In this document: piece after piece, positions 3,925 through 64,000 of the stretch
Numbering within the stretch: position 1 is the first letter of the stretch
Layout: each line of letters opens with the position of its first letter
NCBI GenBank assembly: GCA_002049455.2
Contig: KV918783.1
Location: 372,001 to 436,000, forward strand
Source of the DNA: Porphyra umbilicalis
Taxonomy: Eukaryota > Rhodophyta > Bangiophyceae > Bangiales > Bangiaceae
Direction: 5' to 3'
DNA: 64,000 bases
The notes under the pieces: generated by a model
The model's database searches: none
Told to the model about the DNA's origin: nothing
What the model saw: only the letters and a program-made list of their open reading frames with translations
Program-made: the position numbers and the translations under genes

Positions 3925-4113
3925 TTACAAGCCGCGCGCGGGCGAGCCTGCGCGTCAGCTTGGCCTCGTGCGAGGCGTGAGGCCCTGCACGAGGGCTTCC
4001 CCGGCGGATGGCCTTCACCCGTTGGAGTGCAAACCCGTGTTTTTGACTCGTGTCAAGGAGCATATTCATCACACTTTTTTCCTCGCAATATTTGCGAGCC
4101 GCGCAACAATCGC
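3925..4113. repeat. foldback loop containing a copy of the downstream promoter-side sequence
   Basis: The unpaired loop of about 190 bp contains, at 3940-4057, a 118-bp sequence that recurs in the same orientation at 5008-5125 with about a dozen differences. The second copy lies directly upstream of the TATA box of the secreted-protein gene. Hence the loop holds either captured or duplicated 5' flanking DNA. Confidence 0.85.
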
Positions 4114-12999: not shown

Positions 13000-14168
13000 G
13001 AAGGAGCTGGTGGAGCAGGCAGCGCCGCCGCGGCCGCCAACTTTGGTGGCTCGGCGGCCGCCGCTGGCGGCGTCTCGCCAACGGGCGTGCGTGGAGGAGA
13101 GGGCGCTGGTCGTGCGGGCGTCACCGCCGCGGCCGCCGACTTTGGTGGCTCGGCGGCCGCCGCCGGCGGCGCCTCGCCATCATGCGGGGGGGACGTCGGA
13201 TGTGTGGATGGTGCGGGCGCCGCCGCCGCGGCCGCCAACTTTGGTGTCTTGGCGGCCGCCGCTGGCGGCAACTCGCCAGCGGGCGTGCGTGGGGGAGACG
13301 GCGCTGGGGGTGCGGGCGCCACCGCCGCGGCCGCCGACTTTGGTGGCTCGGCGGCCGCCGCCGGCGGCGACTCGCCAGCGGGCGTGCGGGGTGGAGAAGG
13401 AGCTGGTGGAGCAGGCAGCGCCGCCGCGGCCGCCAACTTTGGTGGCTCGGCGGCCGCCGCTGGCGGCGTCTCGCCAACGGGCGTGCGTGGAGGAGAGGGC
13501 GCTGGTCGTGCGGGCGCCACCGCCGCGGCCGCCGACTTTGGTGGCTCGGCGGCCGCCGCCGGCGGCGCCTCGCCATCATGCGGGGGGGACGTCGGATGTG
13601 TGGATGGTGCGGGCGCCGCCGCCGAGGCCGCCAACTTTGGTGTCTTGGCGGCCGCCGCTGGCGGCAACTCGCCAGCGGGCGTGCGTGGGGGAGACGGCGC
13701 TGGGGGTGCGGGCGCCACCGCCGCGGCCGCCGACTTTGGTGGCTCGGCGGCCGCCGCCGGCGGCGACTCGCCAGCGGGCGTGCGGGGTTGAGAAGGAGCT
13801 GGTGGAGCAGGCAGCGCCGCCGCGGCCGCCAACTTTGGTGGCTCGGCGGCCGCCGCTGGCGGCGTCTCGCCAACGGGCGTGCGTGGAGGAGAGGGCGCTG
13901 GTCGTGCGGGCGCCACCGCCGCGGCCGCCGGCTTTGGTGGCTTGGCGGCCGCCGCTGGCGGCGACTCGCCAGCGGGCGTGCGTTCAAATGATGCAGCTCG
14001 TGGTGCGGGCGCCGCCGCCGCGGCCGCCAATTTTGGTGGCTCGGCGGCCGCCGCTGGCAGCCACTCGCCAGCGGGCGTGCGTGGAGGAGATGCAGCTGGT
14101 GGTGCAGGCGCCACCGCCGCGGCCGCCAACTTTGGTGGCTCGGCGGCCGCCGCCGGCGGCGACTTGCC
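12190..14168 (+). repeat. 99-bp tandem repeats grouped in 396-bp higher-order units
   Basis: Units of about 99 bp (33 codons, consensus GGSAAAAGGDSPAGVRGGEG plus a GAAAAAAADF-type end) are stacked through the transposase tail. From about 12600 to 13790 they form a higher-order repeat: the segment beginning CCATCATGCGGGG recurs at 12781, 13177 and 13573, exactly 396 bp (four units) apart. Two of the three copies carry GGTTGAG (in-frame TGA), while the middle one has GGTGGAG (Trp). Because unit length is a multiple of three, long overlapping frames are open on both strands. Confidence 0.9.
13000..14168 (+). pseudogene. continuation of transposase repeat tail beyond the first TGA
   Basis: Same reading frame as the transposase: open from 13087 to 13791, where a second TGA in the equivalent repeat position closes it, then open again from 13879 until the copia LTR begins at 14169. 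It consists only of 33-residue Ala/Gly units. It was coding before the two nonsense changes and the copia insertion. Confidence 0.75.
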
Positions 14169-14590
14169 TGTGAAGCGAGAGGTAGATAGGTGGCTGCGTT
14201 GGTTTACTTGAATGGCGGCTGCGGGCCCACTAGGACCGCCTGATATACCCCAGGCGACCCCTCTGCCAGTCCCAGAGACGACCTTCTCTCAGTGCTCCCC
14301 CAGGCACTTCCACTCTCCGCGTGTGCAGGGCCTGCGGCGCACCTCCCAAAGCGGAGCATGCGCCTCCCCGGTGGTAAGCCGCCCACCGCCGCACAATCCA
14401 GTCACCACGCCACGCACAATCCCCCCCCGAGCTCACCACGAGAAGGGGGGAGCTCACCAAGAGATACACAAATCAAGTACAAACAAGTACAAGTCATACA
14501 CAATGGAATGCCAACAAGTACACGAGCTTGAGTCACCAAGAGCCCCCGTGTAAGTATAGCTCCAATGGAATTCCCGAGCAGATCTCAACA
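14169..14590 (-). repeat. copia LTR, 3' copy relative to the polyprotein
   Basis: A 422-bp LTR beginning TGTGAAGCGAGAGGTAGATA and ending CTCAACA. It differs from the other LTR at a few single bases, one C-run length and the GAGCAGAT/GAAAAGAG stretch near the end. Confidence 0.92.
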
Positions 14591-15069: not shown

Positions 15070-18000
15070 TCAGCATGTGGAAGCACGACGTGGGGCCGGC
15101 GTAGCGCCAAGCCCCAAGGTGCCCAGATCCGAGCCAACGCCGATGAAGCGGCGAAACAGGATGAAAGCCGGGGCCGGCAGCGGCTTCGTCAGCCCGTCTG
15201 CCGGCATGTCCACGCTAGGGAGGAAGTAGAACGTCACCTCCCCGCGCGCCACGTAGTCACGCACCATGTGGTACGCGACGTCCACGTGTTTGGTACGCCC
15301 GGTGGCTTCGGGGTTGTTGACCAAGGCGAGGCAAGCCTGGTTGTCTTCCCCCATCGGCACGGCCCCGCCATCGACCCCCAGCGCTGACAGCAGCTTGCGT
15401 AGCCACAGCGCCTCCTTGGCTGCCATCGCGGCGGCCACGTACTCCGCTTCGGCCGTCGAGGTTGCCACCGTCGATTGGCGCTTGCTTGCCCACGCGATGG
15501 GCCCGCCATTGAGGGTGAAGACGAAGCCTGTCGTGGACCGACGGCCGTCAACGTCGCCCGCCCAGTCGGCGTTGGCAAACCCCTGCAGCGGCTCGCTGCC
15601 GCCGTAAACCACCCCAAGGCGGGTTGTCCCGCGCAGGTAGCGCAATACCCCCTTTGCCGCGCGCATGTGGTCCTGCTCAGGGCAAGACATGAAGCGCGAC
15701 AGCACCCCCACGGCAAAGGCGATGTCCGGCCTTGTCGTGGTGGACAGGTAGAGGAGGGAGCCGACCAACTCGGCGTACCGGTTACCCTCCGGCAGCAGGT
15801 CCTCGCCCGTCTTAGTCAGCTTGACCCCTGACGCCATTGGCGCCTTGTTCGGGGTGGAGGTCTCCATCCCAAACGCCTCCAGCAGCGTCGCCGTGTGCCC
15901 CGGGTTGCTCAGAGTGAGCGTCTTCGCCGCACGGTCACGCATGACCTTCATGCCAATAAAGTCGTTGACCTCCCCCATGTCGCGTACTTCAAACTTCGCC
16001 GACACGAAGCGCTTGACGGCAGCAACCCCAGCCAGCTTCTCGCCCGCCACGATAAGGTCGTCGACGTACACGAGAATGAAGACGCGCCCGTGCACAGGGT
16101 GGCACCACTCGTAGAGGCACGGGTCCACCTTGGACCGCACTGCACCGATCTCCTTGAGCTCCTTGTCGAGCTTGATGCCCCACAGCCGCCCAGCCTGCTT
16201 TGTCCCGTAGAGCGCAAGGTTAAGCCGACACATGTCCTCCACGCCCTCCGGCTCGATACCGTCAGGCAGTTTAATGTACATCTCCTTGTCCATTTTGGCG
16301 TTGAGGAAGGCTGTCTTGACGTCGACATGGTGAACCTCCCAGCCCGTGGCTGCGGCCACAGCAAAGAGGGCCCGTGTGGTAGCCGCGTTGGGCACCGGCG
16401 CCCACGTCTCGTCAAAGTCTCGCCCCGGCACTTGGTTGAAGCCTTGGGCCACGAGTCGGGCCTTGTAGCGCGTCATCTTGCCCTCCGCGTCGTGCTTGAT
16501 GTCGAACACGAATCGCGTCTTGATGGCCTTTTGCTTCTTGTTGTTCACCTTAATCTTGGACCAGGTGCCAAGCTTCTTGTGTGCTGCCACTTCTTCCTTG
16601 ATGGCCTGCTTCCACCGCGGCCAATCAGGACGAGCACGCGCCTCCTTCTCGTTCACAGGGGGCTTGTGCAGGTCGCAACCCGCTTCAGCCGAGGACTTGG
16701 TACCGCTTGCCAGGTACGCCTTGGGTTCCTTCTCCCACCATGTTACCTTGGGAGCTGGCTTTCGCTTCGAGCGACGAGGCCCAGGTGCGGCGCTGTCACA
16801 GGTAGCAGGTCCTTGACCGACCGCCGGTATCGAGCCGTCGGGGCCGTCATCGTCTTCCTCCTCGCTATCTTCAGAAAGGGAGGGAGCACTGCCTTCGTCA
16901 TCGCTGTCGGAGGTGTCGTCGGGGGCATACTCGTCCTCTCGCCCGCGTTCAGCGTCGAGCATGTCCATTGCCCCTTCCGTGGCGTCCTCCTTGTCGCCGT
17001 CGTAGTCCGCGGTCAGCCGGGGACCAGCGCTTGACCCGACTGCCGACGCCTCGACCTTAGCCGGGTTCTCCTCCATCAGCACGTCTCGACGCTCAAAGAC
17101 TTGGTTCGTCTCGTCCTCGAGGATGCGGTAGGCCTTGCCACCGACCGTGTAGCCGACAAAGCGGCCGACGTCGGTCCTTGGCTCCAGCTTGCGTTGCTGC
17201 TTCTTGGGCTTGAGCGCCCACGCCCGACTCCCCCAAACGCGGAATCCCGCGACGTTGGGGCGTCGACCCGTTAGAGCCTCCAGCGGTGTCACGTCCAGCC
17301 CCGCTTTGGGGGACCGGTTGAGCACATGGACGACGGAGGCCAACGCCTCAGCCCACAGCTCTTCCTCCGCTCCGGCATCGAGCAGAGCAGCACGCACGCG
17401 CTCCATCAGCGTGCGGTTCACCCGCTCCGCTTTGCCGTTCTGCTGTGACTTGTACGGCTCTGTCATCTCCGACGTGATGCCCTTGTCCTCGTACCATGCC
17501 TTGAGGTCGTTGGTGACGTACTCCTTGGCACCGTCATGACGGACGCGCTTGACCTTGACTCCCGTCAGCGTCTCAAGCTGCTTGATACGCGTCTTGAGAA
17601 CCTGCGGTGCCATCCCTTTCGTCTTGATAGGCGTTGCCGTGATGAACCCCGTGGAGTCCTCCAGCGCCGTCATAAAGTAGATGGAACCACCCAGCGACTC
17701 CGTGAGTGGGCCACCAATGTCGGTGTGCACCAGCTCGCACTTGGTCGTCGCTGTAGATGAGCGGGGGCTCGGCGCCTGAACCATCTTGCCGTCCACACAC
17801 GGCACACACACAGTGCCAATGACGCGCTTGGCGTCTGCCACTGACGACGGCATGCCGTCGACCATTGTGGCCGCCCGCTTGAGGTTGTCTAACCCCAAGT
17901 GGTTGAACCGACGGTGCCACAGCTCCGCCTCCCCGGCTATGCGCGTGGATGCCGCGTTAGCCGACGCCTGGACCGGCGTCACCTTGAGCACATACTGCTC

Positions 18001-19401
18001 CAGGTCGTTCACCTTGCCGACCACCGACGCCTTGTCGAGCACCCCGCTCAAGCGTACAGCATCCCCGTCGCTAAGAATGTAGCAGGCGTTGTCGACAAAC
18101 ACCACCGCACCTCGATTGCGGTCGACTGCTCGAACCGACAGCAGGTTGCTAGTCAGGTCCGGAACGAGCATAGCCTCCCCGAGCACCATGCGCGTCTTGG
18201 TGTTTCCTTTGCCAACGTCCATGGAGACGTGGCCGTGCCCCTTGATGGGCACCTTATCGCCGTTGGCCAAGGTGACCTCGGCCCCGCTTCCCGCCGTCCG
18301 GACGGTGAAGCCCTTATCCCCGGCGGCCATGTGGTTGGTTGCGCCAGAGTCGAGCACCCAGGTTGACAACCCGCGTGTGCTCCCGTGAGCCTTGCTGCTC
18401 CCGGCATTGCCGGTGGAAGCAGTGTAGGCCCGAGCGGCACCCGCGTGGGGCCCGCCGCCTTGGCCGCCTTCACGACCACCACCGCCGGGCTTGCCCTTGC
18501 CCTTGGCCTCATCCGCCTTCTTCTTGTAGCAGTCGCGCTGCATGTGCCCTTTCTTGTTGCAGTAGAAGCACACGACCGACTTCTTGTCAAACGACTTCTT
18601 GTGCGCCGCTGCAGCAAAAGCTTGTGACTTGACACTGCCAGAAGGCTTCGACGCGGCGACGGTAATGCTCCGCTGCTCCACTTGCAGCAGCTTAGCCGTA
18701 ACGTCCGACATGACGAGCTTGGTGTCCATGTTCTCCAAGACCGTCCTGAGCATCCCGTACTCTGACGGAAGCCCCGACAAGACACGCAGTGCGAGCGTGT
18801 TGTCGTCCACCGGGTTTCCGAGCATGGCAAGCTCGTCCCGGATCATCTTGGCGCGCGACGCAAACTTGATGATGTTTTCGTCGTCGCCCTTCTTCAGGCT
18901 GCTCAGCTCGTCCATGAGCCGCAGCAGCTGCGCATTGTCACGTGCCTCGAACATGACCTTGAGCGCGTCCCACGCCTCCTTGGCCGTGTCAACCGACGTG
19001 ACCGTGTTGAGATGCACGGGCTTGACCGACATCTGGATGGTCGCCAGCGCCGCCTCGTTCATGGCGTCCCACGCTTCGACCACCGGGTCGGACTTCTTGT
19101 CGTCCGAACCAGAAGCAGGGCGGTCCGTCACGACGGCCGTCCACAGCTTCTCTTTCTTGAGCTGCGCACGCTGGTACGCCGCCCACACCTTGTAATCGTC
19201 GTCCAGCTGCGCGAACCGTGGGCCGCTAAGGCGGCCGTAGTCCGACATGTTGACGACAGCGGCGCAACCAAGCACCGCACTGACGACGTCGAAGGCGGTA
19301 TCGGCCCGCGCGACGCCGGAACACACCGCAACCCGAGCAACGTCGTCCGACCAGCGACCGCAGGGAAGACGACGATGACCACCAGCGACAGCTGGGCCCA
19401 T
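15070..19401 (-). CDS. copia gag-pol polyprotein (1443 aa, intact)
   Basis: A single open frame in copia order. Gag occupies residues 60-245 (UBN2/gag-polypeptide type, AWDALKVMFEARDNAQLLRL). The zinc knuckle CFYCNKKGHMQRDC is at 278-291, and the aspartic protease DSGATNH at 351-357. The integrase zinc site follows (H...H near 496-500, CVPC near 532-535), and the core has D561, D623 and E659. An acidic spacer covers 790-870. Reverse transcriptase lies at about 955-1190 with YVDD at 1112-1115, and RNase H at about 1270-1400 (NADWAGD, STAEAEYVA). The first ATG lies 4 bases from the 5' LTR. A second Met at residue 52 (19248) directly precedes gag-like sequence and is the likelier start. All catalytic residues are present, so the element may be autonomous. 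Confidence 0.95.
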   Translation of the reverse strand: MGPAVAGGHRRLPCGRWSDDVARVAVCSGVARADTAFDVVSAVLGCAAVVNMSDYGRLSGPRFAQLDDDYKVWAAYQRAQLKKEKLWTAVVTDRPASGSDDKKSDPVVEAWDAMNEAALATIQMSVKPVHLNTVTSVDTAKEAWDALKVMFEARDNAQLLRLMDELSSLKKGDDENIIKFASRAKMIRDELAMLGNPVDDNTLALRVLSGLPSEYGMLRTVLENMDTKLVMSDVTAKLLQVEQRSITVAASKPSGSVKSQAFAAAAHKKSFDKKSVVCFYCNKKGHMQRDCYKKKADEAKGKGKPGGGGREGGQGGGPHAGAARAYTASTGNAGSSKAHGSTRGLSTWVLDSGATNHMAAGDKGFTVRTAGSGAEVTLANGDKVPIKGHGHVSMDVGKGNTKTRMVLGEAMLVPDLTSNLLSVRAVDRNRGAVVFVDNACYILSDGDAVRLSGVLDKASVVGKVNDLEQYVLKVTPVQASANAASTRIAGEAELWHRRFNHLGLDNLKRAATMVDGMPSSVADAKRVIGTVCVPCVDGKMVQAPSPRSSTATTKCELVHTDIGGPLTESLGGSIYFMTALEDSTGFITATPIKTKGMAPQVLKTRIKQLETLTGVKVKRVRHDGAKEYVTNDLKAWYEDKGITSEMTEPYKSQQNGKAERVNRTLMERVRAALLDAGAEEELWAEALASVVHVLNRSPKAGLDVTPLEALTGRRPNVAGFRVWGSRAWALKPKKQQRKLEPRTDVGRFVGYTVGGKAYRILEDETNQVFERRDVLMEENPAKVEASAVGSSAGPRLTADYDGDKEDATEGAMDMLDAERGREDEYAPDDTSDSDDEGSAPSLSEDSEEEDDDGPDGSIPAVGQGPATCDSAAPGPRRSKRKPAPKVTWWEKEPKAYLASGTKSSAEAGCDLHKPPVNEKEARARPDWPRWKQAIKEEVAAHKKLGTWSKIKVNNKKQKAIKTRFVFDIKHDAEGKMTRYKARLVAQGFNQVPGRDFDETWAPVPNAATTRALFAVAAATGWEVHHVDVKTAFLNAKMDKEMYIKLPDGIEPEGVEDMCRLNLALYGTKQAGRLWGIKLDKELKEIGAVRSKVDPCLYEWCHPVHGRVFILVYVDDLIVAGEKLAGVAAVKRFVSAKFEVRDMGEVNDFIGMKVMRDRAAKTLTLSNPGHTATLLEAFGMETSTPNKAPMASGVKLTKTGEDLLPEGNRYAELVGSLLYLSTTTRPDIAFAVGVLSRFMSCPEQDHMRAAKGVLRYLRGTTRLGVVYGGSEPLQGFANADWAGDVDGRRSTTGFVFTLNGGPIAWASKRQSTVATSTAEAEYVAAAMAAKEALWLRKLLSALGVDGGAVPMGEDNQACLALVNNPEATGRTKHVDVAYHMVRDYVARGEVTFYFLPSVDMPADGLTKPLPAPAFILFRRFIGVGSDLGTLGLGATPAPRRASTC

Positions 19402-19405
19402 AACC

Positions 19406-19826
19406 TGTGAAGCGAGAGGTAGATAGGTGGATGCGTTGGTTTACTTGGATGGCGGCTGTGGGCCCACTAGGACCGCCTGATATACCCCAGGCGACCCCTC
19501 TGCCAGTCCCAGAGACGACCCTCTCTCAGTGCTCCCCCAGGCACTTCCACTCTCCGCGTGTGCAGGGCCTGCGGCGCACCTCCCAAAGCGGAGCATGCGC
19601 CTCCCCGGTGGTAAGCCGCCCACCGCCGCACAATCCAGTCACCACGCCACGCACAATCCCCCCCGAGCTCACCACGAGAAGGGGGGAGCTCACCAAGAGA
19701 TACACAAATCAAGTACAAACAAGTACAAGTCATACACAATGGAATGCCAACAAGTACACGAGCTTGAGTCACCAAGAGCCCCCGTGTAAGTATAGCTCCA
19801 ATGGAATTCCCGAAAAGAGCTCAACA
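19406..19826 (-). repeat. copia LTR, 5' copy relative to the polyprotein
   Basis: A 421-bp LTR, near-identical to 14169-14590 and in the same orientation. Transcription of the polyprotein should start within it on the minus strand. Confidence 0.92.
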
Positions 19827-20759
19827 TCGCCAGCGGGCGGGCGCGGAGGTGACAGAGCTGGTGGTGCGGGCGCCGCCGCCGCGGCCGCCGGCTTCGGTGG
19901 CTCGGCGGCCGCCGCTGGCGGCGACTCGCCAGCGGGCGTGCGTGGAGGAGAGGGCGCTGGTCGTGCGGGCGCCGCCGCCGCGGCCGCCAACTTTGGTGAC
20001 TGGGCGGCCGCCGCCGGCGGCGGCTCGCCAGCGGGCGTGCGTGGAGGAGATGCAGCTGGTCGTGCGGGAGCCGCCGCCGCGGCCACCCACTTTGGTGACT
20101 CGGCGGCCGCCGCCGGCGGCGACTCGCCAGCGGGCGGGCACGGAGGTGACGGAGCTGGTGGTGCGGGCGCCGCCGCCGCGGCCGCCGTCTTTGGCGGCTC
20201 GGCGGCCGCCGCCGGCGGCGACTCGCCAGCGGGCGTGCGTGGCGGAGAAGGAGCTGGTGGTGCGGCCGCCGCCGCCGCGGCCGCCGTCTTCGGTGGCTCG
20301 GCGGCCGCCGCCGGCGGCGACTCGCCAGCGGGCGTGCGTGGAGGCGAGGGCGCTGGTGGTGCGGGCGCCGCCGCCGCGGCCGCCGACTTTAATGGTTCGG
20401 CGGCCGCCGCTGGCGGCCACTTGCCGGCGGGCGTGCGTGTCGGGGAGGGAGCTGGTGGTGCGGGCGCCGCCGCCGCGGCCGCCGGCGTTTTCGGTCCGCG
20501 TGCGGTTGCGGGAGGTGGCTCCACAGCCGCAGGACCGGCCGCTGATGCGGCCGCCGCGGCGGCCGCAGCTCCCCGTTTGGCGGCTTTGCCGCACGCTCCC
20601 GTGGTTTTGGGCGGCGCGGACCCCCCGCCGGGTTCTTTTCTGTTCCAGTTGCGGGCGCGCCAGACCGCCACGGATAGAGCAGAGTTCTTCTGTCTCCGCG
20701 ACGACCTGGCGGCCCATATCTTTGATGATCGCGGGTCCCTTCTGGAGCCGTATTTGTAG
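19827..20759 (+). pseudogene. 3' end of the Harbinger transposase gene, separated by copia
   Basis: Beyond the LTR the Ala/Gly 33-residue repeats resume in the same frame and run to about 20500. A non-repetitive tail of about 85 residues follows (ends ARQTATDRAEFFCLRDDL, then HIFDDRGSLLEPYL) with a stop at 20757-20759. This unique acidic/aromatic tail is presumably the true C terminus. Poly-T stretches follow at 20769 and 20790. Confidence 0.75.
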
Positions 20760-36652: not shown

Positions 36653-39565
36653 CTACTCGTGGCCAATTGCCAATTGGGAGCAGAGATATGCTACAGGGGA
36701 CACCACGCCGCAGGTGATGTTCATTCCGATCAGGAAGTTGTCGTTGGCCGCGTCCACAAACTGCTGCTCGATGTGGGGAAACGCCGCCGCCTGCTCCCGC
36801 AGCGCACCCCGAAACACCTTGCGTGCTAGTTGTTCCGCCGTCAGCCCGCTGATGGCAGGGCATTCGAAGACAACAGCCTTATCATACTTGGTGCTCTCCC
36901 GCACCTTCCACGACAAGTGGAACGGAGCCGCCGCTGCGGCAACAGGAGCGGCAACGTAAGCAGCCGGCACACCCCCCCCGCCTCTCCCACCCAGGCCAGC
37001 AAGAGCTGTGGCACGTGGCCCAATTCGCCGTAAGGCGACGCAATTGGGTAGCTTGGCGAAGCGGTCGGTGATAACCAAGATGAAGCGATTGCCCTTCTTG
37101 GAGGCCGGGATGGGCCCAAAGATGTCAACGGACAGCTCCGTAAGAGGCTCGGTAGCCTGGAACGGGGTCAAGGCTGTGGTGTGTCGCCGCAAGGCGAGGC
37201 GATTTTGCGCACACGTTGTGCATTTGGTGATGGTCGAATGAATATCCGTCACCATTGAAGGCCAGTAGTATGCCTTACGCATTGTGTAATACATCCAGTT
37301 CATACCAGGATGGGCGGCCACGGTCGCGTGGTGCTCGAGGGTCAACACGCGTTCGCGTAGAGACTTTGGAATAACCAATTTATTGCCGTAAGGCGCACGG
37401 CGGTACAGAGCGTGATGCTCATCGCGGAAGAAGGCCTTGGCCGTTCCGCGCTCCACGCGAGTGGACATCTCGACGCAGAAGCCGTCTGTTTGTTGTGCTT
37501 CGATAACATCGTCGAGCTCCACCGGTTCCGGTGTGTCGGTACCCGTGTACCTCCCCGTTCGTAAGCCGTTGGCCGTCTCGGCCAATGCCAGACAAGGTAT
37601 ATCATCATGGATATATTCTGGCGGCGCTACTGTAGAGGCGCGCGACAGAAAGTCAGGCAAGTGGTTCGATGCACCTGGCTTATAAACCATATCGAATGTG
37701 TTGTCGGAGAGGCGAAGACGCCATCGCATCAAGCGTCCGCTTGAGTCGGTCGTGCTGTAGATCCAGCTAAGTGCTTGGTGATCCGTTCGGATGAGGAACC
37801 GTTGCCCATCGAGGAAGTGCCTCAACTTGAGGACAGCCCACACGACGCCGATGCATTCTCGCTCCGTTGTGGAGTAGTTTTGCTCTGCAGAAGTGAGTCC
37901 TCGGCTCCAATATCCGACAGGATGAAGCAGTTTGCCCGGCTCCTCCTGGAGGAGAGTACAACCAACTTGTTCGGCGCATGCGTCAACGTCAACGACGAGC
38001 TTCCGATTGGCCTTCGGCAAGGCAAGTACCGGTGGGCACAACAGTGCGTTGCGAAGGTCTTCGAATGCGGAGATGGCCACGTACGTCGGTGGTGGTAGAT
38101 CCGGTGGAATCTCGGCCCTAGTCAGGGCGTTCAGGGGCTTTGCTAGTTTGGCAAAGTCCTTGACGAAACGTCGATAGACGTTGCACATGCCCAAGAAGCT
38201 TTTCAGCTGGGTCTTCGTGGTTGGGAACTTGGCATGCTTCAGAGCATCCACGTTTTTGTTGTGCACGTGCAGTTGCCCGGGGCGGACAATGTGTCCGAGG
38301 TACTCGACCTCATCGGAGAACCACGTGCACTTTTCCAAGTTGAGGGTAACCCCGGCTTCGCGGAGACGGTGAAGAACCGTGTCAACGTCTTTGACGTGTT
38401 GTTCCGCGTTTGCGGAGAAGATGATTACATCGTCTAAGTAGGAAAGGCATATCTGCCACTTCAAGCCCGAGAAGATAATATCCAACGCGCGCTGAAAGGT
38501 AGCGGGTGGGTTCGTCAAGCCGAACGGCATGGATAACCAGTGGTATATACCACAGTGCGTCATGAACGCCGTCTTCTCTTGGTCGTCCTTGCGTAGGGGT
38601 ACTTGCCAGTACCCCGCGGTGCAGTCGAGAGACGTGAACTCCTGGGCATCTCCCAAGGAGTCGAGGCAGTCCTCCATGCGAGGCAAGGGATAAGCATCCT
38701 TCTTGGTGATGTTGTTTAACCGACGATAGTCGACACAGAATCGGGCTTTGCCGTTCTTCTTTGGTACAATTACCACGGGGCTTGCCCAAGCACTATGGCT
38801 AGGGACAATGACGTTGAGCTTCAACATCTTGTTGATCTGATCAGCGATGATCTGCCGTTTGAACGGCCCGGTGCGGTAGGGTTGGGCCCGTATGGGCAGA
38901 GCGTCGGGAGGAGTGACGATGGCGTGCTCCGTAGCATGGATGACGCCAAGGATTCCATCCCACATAGACGAATGCGTCTTAAGCATGTCACGAATCTGCT
39001 TGTGCAGGTACTCGGGTGCCTCACTGAGGCCGAGGTCCTCGAGTGGGTCACGACTCGCGTCGTCCGATGAGTTATCGGTTCCACCCTTTGGGGTGTTGTC
39101 ATCCAAGACGGTGGAAAGCATCGGCCCTTGGTAGGGTTCTGCGAACCCCAAGGTTGAGTTCTTGCGAACAATGACTTGGTCCTTGCCGAAGTTGCATAAC
39201 TTGACCAGGAATGGTTCGTCCGGTTTGACGATGGCGATAACGCGGGCGACTGCCATGGACTTGTGTCGGCACAACCGAATGTTCGGTGTGATGGTAACCA
39301 TACCAGGGGTGTCGCACGTGGCCATGATCCACGCCTCCTTGTGTCCGTTGACACGCACCTGTTTGCAGGCTCGAACCCGAGGGGGTTTATCTTGCCAGTG
39401 GCGGTCCCACGCGCTGTCGTTAAGACAAGCTAAGATCGGCGTTGGCCGAGGTTGTTCTTCCGTGCAGCGCACGTGCTCTTGCCAGACGATCTTGCGCAAG
39501 CGCGACAAGATGCCCTCGACGTTTTGTTCAATGAACTCGGTGCCAAGAATGCACGGGACTGACAA
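36653..39565 (-). CDS. gypsy pol: RT, RNase H, truncated integrase fused to foreign sequence
   Basis: A 970-residue frame of a Ty3/gypsy polyprotein. RT runs from about residue 195 to 420 (WASPVVIVPKKNGKARFCVD, FTSLDCTAGYWQVPL, active site YLDD), followed by RNase H (LVVDVDACAEQVGCTLLQEE, RTDHQALSWIY). Then come the integrase zinc site (HH...H, CTTC) and the first catalytic D in LSVDIFGPIPASKKG. After CVALRRI (about 37015) gypsy similarity ends. The frame runs on in Ala/Gly sequence and then a different protein (YDKAVVFECPAISGLTAEQL; AAAFPHIEQQFVDAANDNFL) to the stop. The second D and the E of the integrase, and the 3' LTR, are missing, so the element is dead. The ATG at 39565 is not the real start: the same frame continues upstream past one TGA. 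Confidence 0.85.
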   Translation of the reverse strand: MSVPCILGTEFIEQNVEGILSRLRKIVWQEHVRCTEEQPRPTPILACLNDSAWDRHWQDKPPRVRACKQVRVNGHKEAWIMATCDTPGMVTITPNIRLCRHKSMAVARVIAIVKPDEPFLVKLCNFGKDQVIVRKNSTLGFAEPYQGPMLSTVLDDNTPKGGTDNSSDDASRDPLEDLGLSEAPEYLHKQIRDMLKTHSSMWDGILGVIHATEHAIVTPPDALPIRAQPYRTGPFKRQIIADQINKMLKLNVIVPSHSAWASPVVIVPKKNGKARFCVDYRRLNNITKKDAYPLPRMEDCLDSLGDAQEFTSLDCTAGYWQVPLRKDDQEKTAFMTHCGIYHWLSMPFGLTNPPATFQRALDIIFSGLKWQICLSYLDDVIIFSANAEQHVKDVDTVLHRLREAGVTLNLEKCTWFSDEVEYLGHIVRPGQLHVHNKNVDALKHAKFPTTKTQLKSFLGMCNVYRRFVKDFAKLAKPLNALTRAEIPPDLPPPTYVAISAFEDLRNALLCPPVLALPKANRKLVVDVDACAEQVGCTLLQEEPGKLLHPVGYWSRGLTSAEQNYSTTERECIGVVWAVLKLRHFLDGQRFLIRTDHQALSWIYSTTDSSGRLMRWRLRLSDNTFDMVYKPGASNHLPDFLSRASTVAPPEYIHDDIPCLALAETANGLRTGRYTGTDTPEPVELDDVIEAQQTDGFCVEMSTRVERGTAKAFFRDEHHALYRRAPYGNKLVIPKSLRERVLTLEHHATVAAHPGMNWMYYTMRKAYYWPSMVTDIHSTITKCTTCAQNRLALRRHTTALTPFQATEPLTELSVDIFGPIPASKKGNRFILVITDRFAKLPNCVALRRIGPRATALAGLGGRGGGGVPAAYVAAPVAAAAAPFHLSWKVRESTKYDKAVVFECPAISGLTAEQLARKVFRGALREQAAAFPHIEQQFVDAANDNFLIGMNITCGVVSPVAYLCSQLAIGHE

Positions 39566-56265: not shown

Positions 56266-56775
56266 GTGATGCATGCTTCGACCCCTATTGAACTGGCCTA
56301 CTCACGACTGGTCGCAGCGTGTCAATCCCTCGTTGCTGCGCGTTTGCAACGTCCACGCTTGGGTGTTACACTAGGGAGCACGCGGGCCGGCCTCTTCCGG
56401 GAAGCAGGCGACCTTTTGTCAGGGGTTGGCATCCAGGCGATAGACAACACCTTTGACAGCACGGACTGGCGGTCGCGCACCGCGCAAGCAGCCACTGACG
56501 CGACTGTGGCCCCCGCATACGTCGTGAGCCTGCACCTGACACCAACGACGCAGCGGTGCGCCCCAACGTCGGGTGGCGGTGCCGCTTTTCGGGCGCAGCG
56601 CCGCTGTCGCGTTTGCAGGACGAATCGCAGCACACTCGTGTGCTACGAGTGTCGCAATCCGAGCATGGGTGGTGCGATGTTCTTGTGCGGGCCGAAGACG
56701 GGTCGCGACTGCTTCCGGTTCATTCGCATGCTGCACACGACGCCTTGCTTTGACAACGTCTGGGTGGGCGGGTAG
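56266..56775 (+). pseudogene. C-terminal zinc ribbon of a piggyBac-like transposase
   Basis: The last 50 residues of this frame carry RRCRVCRTNRSTLVCYECRN followed by a C-x5-C-F-x-F-x-R-x-L-H end, the pattern of the C-terminal zinc ribbon of piggyBac-type transposases (C-x2-C, R..T...C..C, LC...CF..+H). Upstream sequence (IELAYSRLVAACQSLVAARL) may belong to the end of the catalytic domain, but the catalytic aspartates are not present. A remnant only. Confidence 0.55.
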
Positions 56776-57002
56776 GATGACAGAGGGGGATCGCGACTGC
56801 GCATTCCACGCCGTGAATAAAGGACCTTGCATGTACAGTCACATCCAGATCTGCTCTGCGGTCGGCCGACCTCACCGGAAGCGCAGCCAACGACTGGCTG
56901 TCAGAAGCTGGTTGCAACAAGGATGCAGGGCGGGTGGAGTTGCACAGAATAGGGCCACGAAGCAGTCGTTCGCTTTGCGTCCAGGACCATTCAGACTGCA
57001 CC

Positions 57003-57070
57003 GAATTCATCCCTGCCCTTTGAACACACCGCCCGTCGCTCCTATCGAATGATGGTCAAAAGAAACAAGT
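57003..57070 (+). rRNA. SSU (18S) rRNA 3' exon remnant
   Basis: ATCCCTGCCCTTTGAACACACC and GCCCGTCGCTCCTATCGAAT are the universal 3' region of nuclear SSU rRNA (usual TCCCTGCCCTTTGTACACAC). Helix 44, normally about 90 nt, is cut to a few bases before AACAAGT, the 5' exon end of the S1506 intron. Upstream SSU is absent. It is therefore a pseudogene remnant, not a working rRNA, as far as can be judged. Confidence 0.85.
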
Positions 57071-57486
57071 AATCCTTTTATGTGCAAGCAGCGGGCTTTT
57101 GGGTCAGCTGTGACATTCTCAAATTGCGAGAACACCCGAAACCGGAGAGATACCGCGGCTCCGTGAACACAAACACGGGGTGCACGAGAAAGGTAACGCC
57201 CCTGCGGATGGTAACAACTCTCTCGGATATTTGTTCTTAGAGACAAGACATGGGCAATCCGCAGCCAATCTCTGTTTCCTGGCAGGCATTCTGTCCGGTG
57301 CAGAAGGTCGACAGACTGTAAGGGACGGCGTCTTTTTGCCAAACGGTAGAGCGTGCTTCAGAGACAGTCGGTCCCCTGCGACAGCAATGTTCCGTGAAGG
57401 ACGGTGTCCGCGAAGGCGGTAACCTGAGAGCCACGGAAGTCTCCTGAGGGATGGGTAGCTTCGCAGATATCGAAACGAGCACAACG
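57071..57486 (+). ncRNA. group I intron at SSU position 1506
   Basis: 416 nt between AACAAGT and TTCCGTAGGTG, the exact S1506 site, ending in the expected terminal G. Core elements are visible in order: P (AAATTGCGAGAA, 57121), Q (CAATCCGCAGCC, 57255), R (GACAGACTGTA, 57310) and S (AGAGACAGTCGG, 57360). GACTGT of R and ACAGTC of S form a perfect P7. Bangiales (Porphyra, Bangia) are well known for introns at this site. No homing endonuclease ORF is seen within it. Confidence 0.85.
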
Positions 57487-57517
57487 TTCCGTAGGTGTAC
57501 CTGGAAAAGAATTATTC
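57487..57517 (+). rRNA. SSU rRNA 3' terminus remnant
   Basis: TTCCGTAGGTGTACCTGG followed by AAAAGAATTATT corresponds to the usual TTCCGTAGGTGAACCTGC...GGATCATTA end of 18S rRNA, with several substitutions including the helix 45 loop. Confidence 0.85.
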
Positions 57518-57789
57518 ACAAACTGTTGAGAACACACAGACATGCCAAACGGTTGAGACCCCTCTTTTTCTATAGTAACAACTCGTATATATTGCTTTAT
57601 AAAATCCTTTCTGACCATGCTGCGCAGGCAGTGCCGTTGGCAACTTTAGTTGCCATTGCCCCGTGCGGTGCGGAAAGGACGACTTTCGTAGGTCTTGCTG
57701 TCATCAGAGTGGAGGTGCCAGCAGGGCGGCTGGCACCCTTTCTTTTCACTCAGCTACAGCTGGTAGGATGTAGTGGATAAAACAACCAT
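57518..57789 (+). other. ITS1-like spacer
   Basis: About 270 bp between the SSU end and 5.8S similarity, in the position of ITS1. Not conserved, as expected of a spacer. Confidence 0.6.
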
Positions 57790-57885
57790 ATACGACACAT
57801 ACCGGTGGATATCTCGGTTCTCGTAACGTTGAAGAACGCAGGAAACTGCGATACGTAATGTGAATTGCATGACTTTGATTAAAGC
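57790..57885 (+). rRNA. 5.8S rRNA, degenerate 3' half
   Basis: GGTGGATATCTCGGTTCTCG, then GAAGAACGCAGGAAACTGCG and ATACGTAATGTGAATTGCA match 5.8S rRNA well. After ATTGCA the normal ATCATCGAATCTTTGAACGC is absent and replaced by unrelated sequence, so the molecule is truncated or heavily altered. Confidence 0.8.
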
Positions 57886-58453
57886 CTCAGTTCGTCCACC
57901 CGCCTGCCCGCCGGCTTTGCCGTCGTGATCACAGGTGGATCACGGAGATCTTGTGGAGTCTTCGTTCGTTCGATTTCGCGTTGGCCAAGATCTCTTCGTG
58001 CTGGTCGACCGAGTCCAAGTGCTCATACCGTTTGAGAGAGATAGGCGGCGCGTAAACGTTATGCCGTCTAGTCCTCCATTTCGGAGGGCGACACACCAGG
58101 CTATCGGGACCCTGCCCACTCGCCGTCTTGGTCTCGTGGGAACTTGTACAATTCTACCCAGGCAGCGAGGCATAAAGAAAGTAGCTGCCTGCGGATCTCG
58201 GTTAGTGGCCGAACCACCGAAAAAACTTGTACAGGGAGGCGATGTGCAGTCGAGTCCGTATTTACCTGAATCAACGACGGACCGTCTCAACGACTGCTAA
58301 GGTGTGGGTCGTTTGGATTTCGAAGTTAGAAGGGCTTGAGGTACAATCTTTTCCCACCCGTCAATGGTGCTTGTGTGAAATCCCTCGAGGGGGAACTAGC
58401 ACAAGGGCTGGGGAGTTGCGGAAATGCTTCTCCCCTGGACAGCCGGTAGAAAC
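57886..58453 (+). other. ITS2 position; most of LSU missing
   Basis: About 570 bp where ITS2 and roughly 1.9 kb of LSU should be. No canonical LSU 5' landmark is recognisable. The end (CGGTAGAAACG just before AAGG) would suit the 3' end of another group I intron at L1925/1926, but I cannot find its core. A large deletion in the rDNA copy is the simplest explanation. Confidence 0.45.
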
Positions 58454-58479
58454 GAAGGTCGCCAATAGCCTCGTCATCT
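58454..58479 (+). rRNA. LSU (28S) rRNA fragment upstream of L1949 intron
   Basis: AAGGTCGCCAATAGCCTCGT then CATCT corresponds to the universally conserved AAGGTAGCCAAATGCCTCGT, CATCT, with two to three changes. It ends at the intron with the U expected of a 5' exon. Confidence 0.85.
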
Positions 58480-58826
58480 AAACACTACCTGGTTGAGATA
58501 GTCTGTGTGGAAGGCTTGTGCAGGCTGGTACCCCCCCTTGGAGACTCGACGTCTCACGGGTGCGACATTCCTTGTACAGGGAAACCTTCCAATCTTAGGC
58601 GTGTGTTACCATCCCCGCGGGGAAACTCGCGGCGGGAATGATGACCGGAGCCGATAGTGAGAACCCATACGGCCTATGGAGTGACCCAGTGGTGAGAGGC
58701 TAAGTCGCGCGTGCGATATTGCATCCGTTACAGAGACTGAACGGGAGAGGGCTGGAGGAATTTGTGTGCCTTCGGCTTAAGATTCAGTCCGGGCCCCAGA
58801 AATGGAAATCCTGGGTAATGCACCTG
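58480..58826 (+). ncRNA. group I intron in LSU rRNA at about L1949
   Basis: 347 nt inserted between CATCT and the 3' exon AGCTAGTGACGCGC (usual AATTAGTGACGCGC), ending in the terminal G. R (CAGAGACTGAACGG, 58731) and S (AAGATTCAGTCCGG, 58779) contain GACTGA and TCAGTC, a perfect P7. A Q-like GACCGGAGCC lies at 58643. No ORF inside. Position numbering is derived by counting from the L1925 site in AAGGTAGCC. Confidence 0.8.
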
Positions 58827-59056
58827 AGCTAGTGACGCGCGTCAGTGGATTAACGAGATTCCCACTGTCCCGATCCACTATCTAGCGAATTCACCGCCCA
58901 GGGAACGGGCTTGGACATATCTGCGGGGAAACAAGACCCTCTTGAGCTCGACTATAGTACGACTTTGTGAGACGAGTGAGAAGGGGTAGTTTATATTAGA
59001 GGGGCAACCCAACCATGATATGCCTCTACTCTGAATCTCGTTTTATTTACTCCGCC
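58827..59056 (+). rRNA. LSU (28S) rRNA fragment, diverged
   Basis: Clear LSU landmarks: GGATTAACGAGATTCCCACT, ACTATCTAGCGAA, GGGAACGGGCTTGG, GCGGGGAAACAAGACCCT, TTGAGCTCGACTATAGT, and the CTCTACTCTGA...TTTTATTTACT end of that domain. Substitutions occur at normally invariant positions (for example GCGAATTCACCG for GCGAAACCACAG). Similarity ceases near 59056, before the sarcin-ricin loop. Confidence 0.85.
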
Positions 59057-59532
59057 GAGCAGGAGTGCATGGTCACACCCTTTCTCTGGTATTTAAACTG
59101 GGGCGTGCAAGTCTTTTGAATTGATACAGGCTCTTTTGGGCCATTCGGGACGAGCACCTTCGCGTTTGCCAGACGCGTTTGACGTGTCGCACAGTTCAGC
59201 GAGTTTGGAACGCTGAAAACTCCGCGCGAGTGATTGGACGAGTGCGTCTCTCTAAACTGCAGCACATGGACCCTGGGATGGGAAACTTCGTCCCTCACGA
59301 GCAAACGCAAGAGGCGCTTGCGCCGCTCTGGCAGGACAGGCTGGTACGTTGAGGGATCGCAATGCAGGGTCGCACGAATCGATTCGAGTCGCTGTCATGA
59401 GATGCTGTAGCAGTGCCGCCAGCTCCCGAAATATGCCTCGTGACAGGCGTGCAATCTGATCTGTCAGATCCAATATCGAAGTTTCCGGGTTTTCATCCGC
59501 ACTACAGTGCGACCCCTCACTTGGCCGCCCCG

Positions 59533-59556
59533 CAGTTGTGCCGATCGGCACAACTG
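59533..59556. repeat. 24-bp perfect palindrome upstream of the pogo gene
   Basis: CAGTTGTGCCGATCGGCACAACTG written as one arm and its complement around GATC (axis 59544.5), 290 bp upstream of the transposase start. Possible end structure of the pogo element or an operator-like site; function unknown. Confidence 0.9.
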
Positions 59557-59842
59557 AGGGGGGGGTACGCATCAAGTGGCCCTCTACGGAGGAGAGAATT
59601 CGGCATATATTTACTCTCTTTGGAGACCACATGGGAAAAATTGCCATGTCACTTACTTCGGCAGTAATTGTACTTGGCGATATTTTGTGGACGATTTGTC
59701 GTCGCCGCTCGCCGTCACTCGCCGTCACTCGTCCACCCCCGACGGAACACGCCACCAGCTGCTGACCGACCGCCATGCTGCCTACGGACGCTCCTCATCC
59801 CTCCCCGCCCCCCTGACGCTCTCTAACCTCTGTTTGATTGAC

Positions 59843-61402
59843 ATGGACGACCAGGCGCAAGAAGGCCCTTCCCCCAGACCGTCCCTCATTGCTACTCTTT
59901 TGACCGCCGCCGCCCTGATCCCGCAGGCGTCGGCTGTGCTCTCGGCGCGACCTGGGACAGCGGAGGCGGTCAACGCGGCGGCAAGAGCTGCCCTGGACGC
60001 CGTTCGCCAAGCAGTACAAGGGAGCCCCCTTTTCCCAGCTCTACCCGCACCACCAGCTTCCGGGGCGCCTGGGGTTGCTGCTCTAGGCGCCCCACGTGGG
60101 GCGCCTGAGGTTGCTGCTCCAGGCGCCCCACGCGGGGCGCCTGGGATTGCTGCTCCCGGCGCCCCACGTGGCGAGCGACCGAGGAGGGCAAGTTTGACCA
60201 TCCAGCAGGAGCAGCTGCTCATCACTCCAGTCGACGACAAGGTCCCGCGCGACGTGCTGGCGCAGAGGTATGGCATCTCCAAGAGGACCATCCATAGCGT
60301 GTCTGCGCGGCGGCGTGAGGTGTGGGCCGCCGCAGCTGCAGGAGCCCCCTCGTTTGCGCGCTGCGTCCAGCCATGCCGCTTCCCACTGGTAAACTCCCTC
60401 CTTTTTGAATGGTTTTTGCGTATTCGGACCATGGGGCGCAAGACGATGCCCCTCTCTCGGCTGGCCTTATCCGTCAAGGCCCGCGAGCTGGCGCAGCGCC
60501 ACTACCCTGGCCAGGACTTCTCAGCGTCGAACGGGTTTATCGACCGCTGGGCGAGGCGCCACGGAGTTCGGAGCATCCATCTCCACGGCTCCGGTGGCGG
60601 CGTGGACATTGTGGAAGGGGAAACAAGCATGGCAGAACTACGGGCAAAAATGGTTGGGCTTGACCCAGACTGCATCCTCAACATGGACGAGGCGGCGCTA
60701 TTATACCAACTGGCGCCAACCCGCTCGTACGTGATGGATTGTGATGCTCGGGAGACGCGCGGCACTGCTATGCAGACGGCGAAGGCACGCATCACGCTCA
60801 TCGTTTGCATCAACGCAACGGGCACCTTTAAGTCCATCTCCGCGATTGGGAAGGCGGCCGAGCCGGTTCGCTTTCGTGGGGTGCAACAACTTCCCTTAAG
60901 GTACTACAGTCAAAAGAATGCGTGGATGGACTCCACGGTGTACGCCAAGTGGCTGGTCGACCTCAGTGCGGATTGGGCGGCCTTCACGGCGCAGCGCGGC
61001 ATTTTGGTCATAGACAACGCGTCTGGCCACGACTCGTCGAAAACGAGTGACCGACTGGACATCGAGTGGCTGCCGCCCAATACCACGGCGCTTTTTCAAC
61101 CGGCAGACCAAGGCGCCATCAACGCGGTTAAGTCAACATACAAGCGCGGCATGATGCGGGAGATGCTGGGGACGTTTGACCAGCAATTTGAGGAGCCCCC
61201 CCCGAACGGGACGCCCGGCGGAGGAGGGACGCTCGGGCGAGGCCCGGGTCCCTTGGGGTGGCGGATGGGCGAGCACCGCACGTGCTGGACGCCATGCGCC
61301 ACGTTAAGGAGGCTTTTTCTGGCCTGTCCGCCACTGCCATCATGCGCTGCTGGCTACGCGCCAAGTGCACCCCCCCTGACGTCTCGCGACTCATCCAGCT
61401 GA
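59843..61402 (+). CDS. pogo/Tigger-type transposase (DDE_1), frameshifted near its end
   Basis: From the ATG at 59843 (MDDQAQEGPSP). Residues 1-60 are Ala-rich helical; 73-110 hold GAPRGAPEVAAPGAPRGAPG repeats. A psq-type HTH follows (LTIQQEQLL...GISKRTIHSV, 118-152), then a CENP-B/Tc5-like HTH (183-243, PLSRLALSVKARELAQ...NGFIDRWARRHGV) and a DDE_1 core with D282 in ILNMDEAALL, D391 in ILVIDNASGH and D422 in QPADQGAINAVK. All three catalytic aspartates are present. After EMLGTFDQQFEE the frame crosses a C8 run (61196-61203) and turns to Gly/Pro/Arg; the true C terminus is in the next frame. An earlier Met in this frame (59576) lacks protein-like sequence. Confidence 0.85.
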   Translation: MDDQAQEGPSPRPSLIATLLTAAALIPQASAVLSARPGTAEAVNAAARAALDAVRQAVQGSPLFPALPAPPASGAPGVAALGAPRGAPEVAAPGAPRGAPGIAAPGAPRGERPRRASLTIQQEQLLITPVDDKVPRDVLAQRYGISKRTIHSVSARRREVWAAAAAGAPSFARCVQPCRFPLVNSLLFEWFLRIRTMGRKTMPLSRLALSVKARELAQRHYPGQDFSASNGFIDRWARRHGVRSIHLHGSGGGVDIVEGETSMAELRAKMVGLDPDCILNMDEAALLYQLAPTRSYVMDCDARETRGTAMQTAKARITLIVCINATGTFKSISAIGKAAEPVRFRGVQQLPLRYYSQKNAWMDSTVYAKWLVDLSADWAAFTAQRGILVIDNASGHDSSKTSDRLDIEWLPPNTTALFQPADQGAINAVKSTYKRGMMREMLGTFDQQFEEPPPNGTPGGGGTLGRGPGPLGWRMGEHRTCWTPCATLRRLFLACPPLPSCAAGYAPSAPPLTSRDSSS

Positions 61403-61749
61403 GGCTGGACCAGGCGGTGGCGGCTGCCCGGGAGCCCCCCCCGACAGACGATGCGCAGGCCATAGTTGCATTGCTGCGCAGCGCGAGGAGCCTGGGCCCG
61501 GTCGGCGGTCAGCATGTTGGCGAGGGCGCCAACCGCGCGCATGAGGGCTTCATTCCTGGCAGCCATCCTCGTGCGCTGTCAGTCATTGAGGTGTGGCTTG
61601 GGGATGAAGATAGCGCAGACTCCATTATGTCTATTGTGGACACAGAAATAAACCGACCCCTGGCCAGACGGACCATCACGCCGTGGCCGCATCCCCAACT
61701 CCCGGATGCCTTCTGTTTAATATTGCCCGCGAGAAGAAAAAAAGCATAA
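61198..61749 (+). CDS. displaced C terminus of the pogo-type transposase
   Basis: In the frame one base off, sequence resumes as VLDAMRHVKEAFSGLSATAI and MRCWLRAKCTPPD, the usual region after the third aspartate in pogo-type transposases (D.......W..V...TI..C). It continues to a natural end at 61749. A one-base length error or indel in the C8 run at 61196-61203 would join the two, giving a protein of about 635 residues. Confidence 0.65.
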   Translation, partial: PPERDARRRRDARARPGSLGVADGRAPHVLDAMRHVKEAFSGLSATAIMRCWLRAKCTPPDVSRLIQLRLDQAVAAAREPPPTDDAQAIVALLRSARSLGPVGGQHVGEGANRAHEGFIPGSHPRALSVIEVWLGDEDSADSIMSIVDTEINRPLARRTITPWPHPQLPDAFCLILPARRKKA

Positions 61750-61782
61750 TGGCCACAGAAGGCAAGCCATGTTTGTCTCAAT

Positions 61783-62335
61783 ATGGCATGGGGGGGGGTT
61801 GGGGCGCGGGGGGATGGGGGGCGGGGCGCCCTGCAGCATTCCGCGGCGGCTCGCGGCGGCTCAGAGGGGGGGGGGGCGGGGGACGGGGGGATGAGGGGGG
61901 GTTCAATGCCCCCGTCAATTTGATGCGGGGGGGGGGGGGGGGGGGGGCGGGGTGGATGGGCAGAGCGGGGCGCTGAAGTGGGCGGGGGGGCTGGGGGCAG
62001 GCTGCCCAGTGGCACCCGCCGCGGCGACTTGGCTGGGGGGGTGGCCCTCGGGGACAGAATCTGGGGCGGCGACCCGCAAGGTCTGGCGCATCGAGCCCAG
62101 TGATGCCAATGATGGATGACCAAATTTGGTCGGGTCCTACGCAAGTGCTGGGGGGGGCGAGTCGGGGGGGCTGGCGAGGTAGGGGGGGGGGGGTTCGTTG
62201 AGCGGGGGCGGGTCGGGTTGGCGGGGGGCGCGTTGGGGGGGGGGGGGGTGTGGCGGGCGGGGCGGGGGGGGGGAGGGGGAGGGGGTGGGATAGGGGGGGG
62301 GAGGCTGGGGCGGGCGGGGGTTAGCGGCGTGCCGT
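61783..62335 (+). repeat. G-tract block with quadruplex potential
   Basis: The plus strand holds many G runs of 5-18 bases (for example 61926-61945 and 62223-62240) with short spacers. It follows the transposase stop directly and may be the 3' part of the pogo element. No coding meaning: the apparent Gly-rich ORFs are composition effects. Confidence 0.8.
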
Positions 62336-64000
62336 CCGATGGCACCCGCCGCGGTGACTCGGGGTGAGGAAGGGAGCGGGTGCCACCCGTAAGATCCAGC
62401 GCGTGGCCCCCGCGAGGAGAATGACGGGTGACTGAACCGAGTCGGGACCCGGTCCAGTGTCGGTCGGCAGATGGCGCCGGCCTCTCTCCACGGCTGCGGT
62501 TGGGTGGGTCCAGCATGCATCGTTGCGTGGCGATTGCATATTTACCGTCAAGTGCTTTGTCGTGATCCAGCCAGACTGTCCCCAGAACACCGCCAGCCTG
62601 TCTCCTCCAACCTATTTACGTGGGCCAAGATCCGTTTGGCAATATGGCCCCGGACACTTTTAGGAGGGCCACCTCTTTGGTCTACCCTGGGGCAAGTGAG
62701 GGGTCGCACTGTATGTCCCGTGTCACGTCAAAATAGTTGGTGCTAGCTGACGTGTGTGCGCATTCTAATAATGTGATTCGGGCAAAATCATGTGCCAGTG
62801 CTTCCGCTGTGTGGCGTGAGCATAACATCCGATTCATTGCGGTTGGAAAGGGATTACCTTCGTCGTGCAGCGTACTTGGACTCATGGAATTGCACGCTTC
62901 CTAGAAACAGCGTTACGGATCAGGCGCACATAGCTTGACGGTCTGGAAAGGCTCTGCAGCATGAGAAAGATTCAGTGGAGATGCCGATCTCTCCCTAAAA
63001 GTCCTACGCTGGTCTCCAGATCGCCCATCAGATCGGTTCCGTACAAAAGAAGATGAGAAAGAACCGCAATTGTCTTGATTCGGGATGCAGACGTCTCGCA
63101 ACCGTTCAGCCGAAGCACCCTGCCGGCTTACCCGACGTCGAGCGCACAATTGTGGCAAAGAACGTAGTGTGCCATGACCGTCGGCCAATCCAGCATTGCT
63201 TCTTTCATTCGTGATGCACTTTGCGTCCTCGACGTCTGCAACCGCCACTCCTCCGATATCCGTAAAATGAAATTCGGCTTTCCGCTGCGCGTCGCACTTC
63301 CCATAAGTGGCCCGCTCTGTGTGCTTAGGGGGTTATAACCTCCGTCGGGTGGGTTTGTTGCACATTCCAGTCTCTGCGTGAGCCCAAAGCAGATCAACAG
63401 TCGTCTTTCACACGGTGGAGAGATTGAATAGTCCGGCTATCAATGCGCCAAATTCAATGATCATAACTAGCTCGCCTTGGTCACTAATCGTGAACAGAAC
63501 ACAACCACCGGGCCTGCGGTAAAACGAATCTCTTATAAGCGATTTCTGATGCTGACTTGGTTTTCAGATCGAGAATCATGTTGGCATGGCCGTGGAAGGC
63601 GTGCCCGTCAGAACAGGATTTCCTGCGCATTGAAAATCCGCCATTCCAGCGCATAAGGCACGACATGTTTAAGAAGCCCATACGCTTTTGTTCTAGATCG
63701 CCTGCAGTTCCCCCGAAATGCGCGATTCCAACCCTGCTAAAGATCTGTAGCTGTAGGGGCACTTGATAGAGAAGAGGGAGGCACAAGGACAGCTGCAGGC
63801 GGAGGATGCGCTCCAATACTGCAGCTACCTCGCAAGAGAGCATCAGGAAACTGTACTCGCGGCCTCCATCGCAGAAGATGCTAACAGACTTTTAGATCCA
63901 AACAATTGCCCCGGAAATTGCAATTCAACAGGATGCTCCGCATGTTTGTTACGTGTCCGGCACGGCCGGATGCTGATCCGCTGCCGGCGCGCTCCCATGG
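62336..64000. other. no gene recognised
   Basis: Ordinary-composition DNA. ORFs of 60-120 codons occur on both strands (largest 63484-63843 minus) without motifs or convincing composition. I see no RNA gene, terminal repeat or known domain. Confidence 0.45.

Follow-up and report, generated by a model that had tools for sequence, protein, structure and literature searches.

Pseudogenes of rDNA in eukaryotes are dispersed copies that decay without selection, and S516 introns, as well as S1506 introns, are habitual in Porphyra and the Bangiales. According to PMC2585584, the nuclear SSU rRNA gene of Porphyra carries S1506 introns with degenerate His-Cys genes in their P1 extension, which confirms for Porphyra the statement of a first-pass annotation of the present locus that such introns are typical of Bangiales. 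The SSU site is identical to that filled here, and the P1 extension of a better-kept copy in the same genome (contig C301) sits where the His-Cys genes of Porphyra lie, whereas the copy described below has no P1 and stands in a dead rDNA fragment. For the LSU, the comparison is by position only: Physarales myxomycetes have nuclear LSU group I introns at L1949 (PMC3679873, PMC8395846), in the helix that also holds the L1951 site reported here but two bases off by the present numbering; Mucilago crustacea has a group IE intron at L1926 (PMC8395846), a position shared with a putative intron remnant of our locus; and the 23S rRNA of Coxiella burnetii has a 720-nt L1951 intron with a LAGLIDADG gene (PMC1995217), at an equal position number in a bacterial host. 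The last is the one relevant L1951 case found in the literature, in an open-access-weighted search that is weak evidence of absence. Searching by title and start of abstract, with subscription journals mostly outside the scope, gave no description of nuclear LSU introns of Bangiales, and a mostly open-access search gave none of rDNA pseudogenes combined with a group I intron; both are likewise weak evidence.

The window analysed here is a stretch of 64,000 nucleotides (C23:372001-436000) from a source genome of 83,822,817 bases in 665 contigs. Within it, a decayed fragment of nuclear rDNA spans approximately 56985-59104; it comprises the 3' end of the SSU, ITS1, the 5' half of 5.8S and a short stretch of LSU, together with remnants of group I introns at S1506 and L1951 and the 3' part of a probable third at L1926 (Table 1). 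We consider the block very probably a non-functional, dispersed nuclear copy of the rDNA. It resembles known eukaryotic rDNA pseudogenes in being dispersed, decaying and unselected, but the relics of this genome differ from them in retaining group I introns at a number of sites, with some sites occupied in one copy but vacant in another.

Composition of the rDNA block

Table 1. Features of the rDNA block and its flanks, in window coordinates
Feature	Position	Strand	Basis or remark
Transposon-end relic adjoining SSU fragment	56300..56984		Family also on C147, C69, C171
SSU rRNA fragment near 3' end	56985..57052	+	Start by eye; 88.7% vs C62 SSU over 56991-57052
S1506 group I intron, core and 3' part	57103..57486	+	Aligned with C301 and C171 introns
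SSU 3' terminus	57487..57516	+	TTCCGTAGGTGTACCTGG... vs C301 TTCCGTAGGTGAACCTGCGG
ITS1	57517..57793	+	Collinear with C301, SSU to 5.8S
5.8S rRNA 5' half	57794..57880, end approximate	+	Rfam RF00002; C301 similarity stops at 57875
Probable L1926 group I intron remnant, 3' part	~58030..58454, 5' limit uncertain	+	Aligned with C171 and 3' part of C86 insert
LSU exon, L1926 to L1951	58455..58479	+	AAGGTCGCCAATAGCCTCGTCATCT vs C200 AAGGTAGCCAAATGCCTCGTTATCT
L1951 group I intron	58480..58826	+	Aligned with C200, C86, two C171 copies, C11 3' part
LSU rRNA fragment 3' of L1951	58827..59104	+	81.9% vs C301 (58830-59100)
Piece of another repeat	59314..59502		Also on C125 and C298
Tc5-like transposon inserted in block	59503..62713		21-bp inverted ends at 59503 and 62713
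C171-shared block resumes past transposon	62712..63889		88.8% (62712-63432), 95.1% (63427-63467), 85.2% (63470-63889)

The first-pass annotation had described an rDNA remnant carrying two group I introns, with SSU, 5.8S and LSU in the correct order. The order is kept, and better-preserved copies elsewhere in the genome confirm both the S1506 intron (C301) and the LSU intron (C200), but the third insert at L1926 had been overlooked, ITS2 and the 5' part of the LSU are gone and the LSU runs on to the end given in Table 1. Absent from the block are SSU helix 44, the 3' half of 5.8S, ITS2 and the LSU up to about E. coli position 1926, and stretch 58558-59104, intron included, is 81.9% identical to C200.

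The Rfam models that had been suggested as a check supported the 5.8S (RF00002 at 57794-57925, 59.9 bits), the only match in the window above its gathering score, but left S1506 and the LSU below cut-off and gave no match to the LSU intron. A search of 56401-59700 at a permissive threshold gave 6 matches. Among them, Intron_gpI (RF00028) at 57117-57325 scored 21.5 bits (E 0.017), short of its 50-bit cut-off, and LSU_rRNA_eukarya, starting at 58397, scored 30.7 bits, also short of its own. There was no Intron_gpI match at L1951; weak matches to snoZ168, mir-30 and Proteo-phage-1 were put down to chance.

Intron sequences at S1506, L1951 and L1926

The S1506 and L1951 introns of the window have the R and S elements and the terminal G that had been noted before. 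At S1506, P lies at 57121, Q at 57252, R at 57310, S at 57359 and the terminal G at 57486. Insertion at exact rRNA positions had been proposed for both introns, and the S1506 3' junction is indeed exact (57486/57487), but the 5' junction is lost together with P1 and SSU helix 44, and 57053-57102 is unassigned. Both splice junctions are kept in C301, where the 5' exon is AACAAGGU, ACAACG stands before UUCCGUAGG, and a guide GCCUUGU matching the 5' exon lies about 300 nt downstream. The RF00028 score falls from 65.9 bits in C301, above cut-off, to 35.7 in C171 and 21.5 in the window, the last below the gathering score. A genome-wide PF05551 search found no His-Cys frame in the P1 extension of the C301 intron.

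The LSU intron lies at L1951 and not, as first annotated, at about L1949. Numbered on the 23S rRNA of E. coli MG1655 rrlB, the exon ends at U1951; the insert of C200 is flanked by LSU, with ...GCCTCGTTATCT before it and AATTAGTGACGCG after it, and ends in G, and its 3' junction, CACCUG/AAUUAG, is compatible only with L1951. In P1, exon UCAUCU pairs with intron GGAUGA in C200 and C171, where the window reads GGUUGA; the splice-site pair is U.G in four of the five copies that have letters there and U-A in C86. L1949, the position of the Physarales family, was rejected because junctions and P1 fit 1951. In the window R lies at 58731, S at 58779 and the terminal G at 58826, and R and S read GACUG and CAGUC in 5/6 aligned copies, the window among them, so as to form P7; the pairing is broken in C86. 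For the 5' junction of C200 there were 0 exact matches in a prokaryote genome collection and no match in phage records.

A structure of 65 pairs was drawn by hand from C200 and applied to a six-row alignment that includes C200, which favours the percentage paired: 89.1% of 348 cells were paired, against 30.3-47.3% with the partner slid by 1-3 columns, and three pairs were changed on both sides. Shuffle controls were mixed. Among 500 shuffles, the percentage paired was matched by 11, the number of pairs changed on both sides by 35, the cells changed on both sides by 4, the covariation score by 4, and the count of further pair types by 473. Some copies, that of the window included, have damage in P3 and P9. 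The L1951 intron of C200 scores 22.3 bits against RF00028, below 50, and the window copy has no match; the gathering score is a weak criterion here, since it is also missed by the S516 introns of C62 and C207. Single-strand folding of three intron cores, by a method to which the P3/P7 pseudoknot is inaccessible, was no better than shuffles in all three (z -1.27, -1.02 and -0.34).

The insert upstream of the short LSU exon is probably the 3' part of a group I intron at L1926, a reading that we hold with good confidence from its sequence. The LSU of C86 is broken at L1926, between ...GGCGGGAGTAA and AAGGAAGC, by an insert of about 1.37 kb, whose 3' part aligns with window 58062-58454 and with C171, and the site is empty in C200 (CTCTCTTAAGG). 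An alternative origin of the stretch, from the 3' end of an R2-type element or from some other insert at this site, is unlikely: the 5' part of the C86 insert is unexplained, the remnant has no Rfam group I match, and L1926 is close to the R2 target, but R (TCTCAACGACTGCTAAGG, 58285-58302) and S (GGTACAGTC in C171; 58336-58348 in the window) are able to form P7, there is a terminal G at 58454, and the 3' end of the C86 insert, CGGTAGAAATG, recurs as the 3' end of the S516 introns in C62 and C207. The pairing is between R GACUG and S CAGUC in C171, with S damaged in the window (CAAUC). A guide-like GAGAGAG at 58034-58040 also speaks against an R2-type end, though it is a short match, altered in C171 and only suggestive. 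The missing Rfam match says little, because the S516 introns of C62 and C207 have none either. In C171, the L1926 remnant is split by a 2.7-kb insert with TTGCTGATCCCC inverted ends and a TA duplication (L021 3119-5803).

rDNA copies and intron sites across the genome

Searching the genome with window 56801-59600 gave 44 DNA matches, many of them short repeats. Copies or fragments of rDNA occur on at least 13 contigs (C23, C171, C301, C200, C86, C11, C207, C2, C255, C62, C336, C182 and C6, the last known by BLAST only), with inserts at seven sites, S516, S1506, L1926, L1951, L2437, L2449 and L2584, of which S516, L2437, L2449 and L2584 were placed by eye on the E. coli sequence. No intact unit was seen among the copies examined, and the active array thus lies outside the comparison. 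C301 has a full-length LSU match (2092 bits) but was rejected as an active unit: it lacks the LSU sequence between about helix 59 and L1951, and 8 nt stand in place of 50 nt in the peptidyl-transferase region.

L1926, L2437, L2449 and L2584 each occur in both states, with an insert in one copy and without it in another. In C11, L2437 holds a group I intron with a strong score (99 bits), followed a few bases on, at L2449, by an insert of about 3.9 kb (L022 5249-9193) with a PF05551 match of 36.2 bits; C182 retains the 3' end of an L2449 insert, and both sites are empty in C200 and C255. L2584 is filled in C301 (50.6 bits) and empty in C255, and C11 and C200 have no insert but small deletions there. 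S516 inserts are found in C207 and C62. At L1951, seven places reach the 3' exon, six with intron sequence and one (C301) with the region deleted, and no empty site was found among them.

As a pseudogene the block is ordinary. One genome with rDNA copies of different ages and seven intron sites, several both filled and empty, offers more: together the relics record which introns these rRNA genes carried, and the order of intron gains, intron losses and endonuclease decay could be worked out for one lineage. The inserts at L1926, L1951, L2437, L2449 and L2584 would extend the Bangiales record, which in the literature searched holds SSU introns only. A bolder reading, to which we give little credence, is that the relics form a standing reservoir, in which introns lost from the array survive with their His-Cys endonuclease genes and from which they can return to the active array through homing or conversion. 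Such a return would account for sites that are filled in some copies and empty in others; the open PF05551 frame in the S516 intron of C62 may be cited as an instance of endonuclease survival, and L1951 would be a eukaryotic nuclear site unlisted in the literature searched.

That frame is free of stops over 198 codons (His-Me/His-Cys endonuclease, 58.7 bits), and its intron (L043 3360-4350 = C62:86360-87350) lies in an SSU relic that several inserts interrupt. Another PF05551 frame (48.6 bits) is found on C42 (L055 4327-5037), with 13 bases of the LSU L1926 region (TAAGGTAGCCAAA) about 400 bases upstream; Rfam found no rRNA or intron match nearby. A repeat of 631-632 bp with inverted ends of about 37 bp, on C207 (L025 4543-5173), has several matches inside rDNA relics, but a special link with rDNA was rejected, given more than 40 long matches genome-wide (about 93%).

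Divergence and origin of the block

The block has a duplicate on C171, collinear with window 56300-58448 at 89.6% and with 58447-59504 at 89.4%, the deletions being shared. Between C23 and C171, K80 was 0.095 in the 5' flank (675 sites) and 0.122 in the 3' flank (721 sites), and 0.115 (1467 sites) and 0.110 (902 sites) in the rDNA. The rRNA is thus kept no better than its flanks (0.11 vs 0.10-0.12), indicating that the rDNA of the window is a neutral pseudogene, in keeping with its loss of the essential helix 44, 5.8S 3' half, ITS2 and LSU 5' part.

Age was judged from the majority of C301, C200 and C11 over 271 LSU positions, a reference that favours these three by definition. K80 to it was 0.011 for C301, 0.026 for C200 and 0.007 for C11, 0.142 for each C171 copy and 0.193 for the window, more than for any other of the five copies in this LSU exon comparison. 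Roughly, 0.11 of change would have preceded the duplication, followed by about 0.08 in C23 and about 0.03 in C171, two arms that look unequal. The description of the relic as a dated fossil thus stands in relative terms but gives no absolute date, which is impossible here. The suggested loss of the LSU intron from active rDNA is unsupported: the little-decayed C200 and C11 (3' part) carry L1951, and with an LSU exon K80 of 0.026 and 0.007, against 0.193 in the window, L1951 persisted in rDNA until recently.

Repeats adjoin the rDNA on both sides. The relic on its 5' side is 85-86% identical to C147 and C69, up to 56975 and 56959, respectively, and a frame over this stretch on C69 matches PF13843 (DDE_Tnp_1_7, 59.2 bits), and a frame on C171 has no family match. 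On the 3' side, the repeat piece matches at 72.9% over 59314-59494 and at 78.4% over 59413-59486, and the Tc5-like element has a transposase frame at 59843-61402 (PF03184 and PF03221), its first 98 bp being 97-99% identical on C436, C166, C328 and C146. We propose that part of an rDNA unit moved out of the array at the DNA level, introns included, was then joined to or hit by transposons, lost large parts and decayed, and that the decayed block would have been duplicated within the larger segment shared with C171 before the Tc5-like transposon arrived. The introns would have been spliced from precursor rRNA while the parent unit was active, and would be inert passengers in the window. This account is supported by the shared deletions and similar drift of the two blocks, by the 5.8S score, by the pairing of the L1951 structure and by related introns at corresponding rRNA positions in copies that are better preserved; the Rfam scores, below cut-off for S1506 and L1951 and silent for L1926, the mixed shuffle controls for L1951 and the unequal arms after the duplication run contrary to it.

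From the introns the first-pass annotation concluded that the copy arose from genomic rDNA and not from spliced rRNA; introns by themselves would leave room for an RNA intermediate, because unspliced precursor rRNA also contains introns and ITS1; transfer of genomic DNA is nevertheless the best account of a copy with both. Reverse transcription of such a precursor followed by insertion seems very unlikely to us, as the internal gaps, the repeats joined on both sides and the co-duplication with the flanks fit DNA rearrangement and not RNA copying, and by inspection no insertion signature stood out at the block junctions. A relic assembled wholly or partly in error from array reads is highly improbable: rDNA arrays assemble badly, and the LSU 5' piece of C255 is flanked by runs of N, but the window and C171 stretches contain no N, and a divergence of 11% between C23 and C171 and of 19% from the young LSU exon is impossible for misjoined array reads.

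Elsewhere in the window, long frames of copia-type and gypsy-type retrotransposons occupy 15070-19401 and 36653-39325, respectively, an inverted repeat at 3132-4906 has 791-nt arms that are 99% complementary around a 193-nt spacer, and two arrays of one 99-bp tandem repeat (11887-14265 and 19728-20621), about 5.5 kb apart, have long frames running through them.
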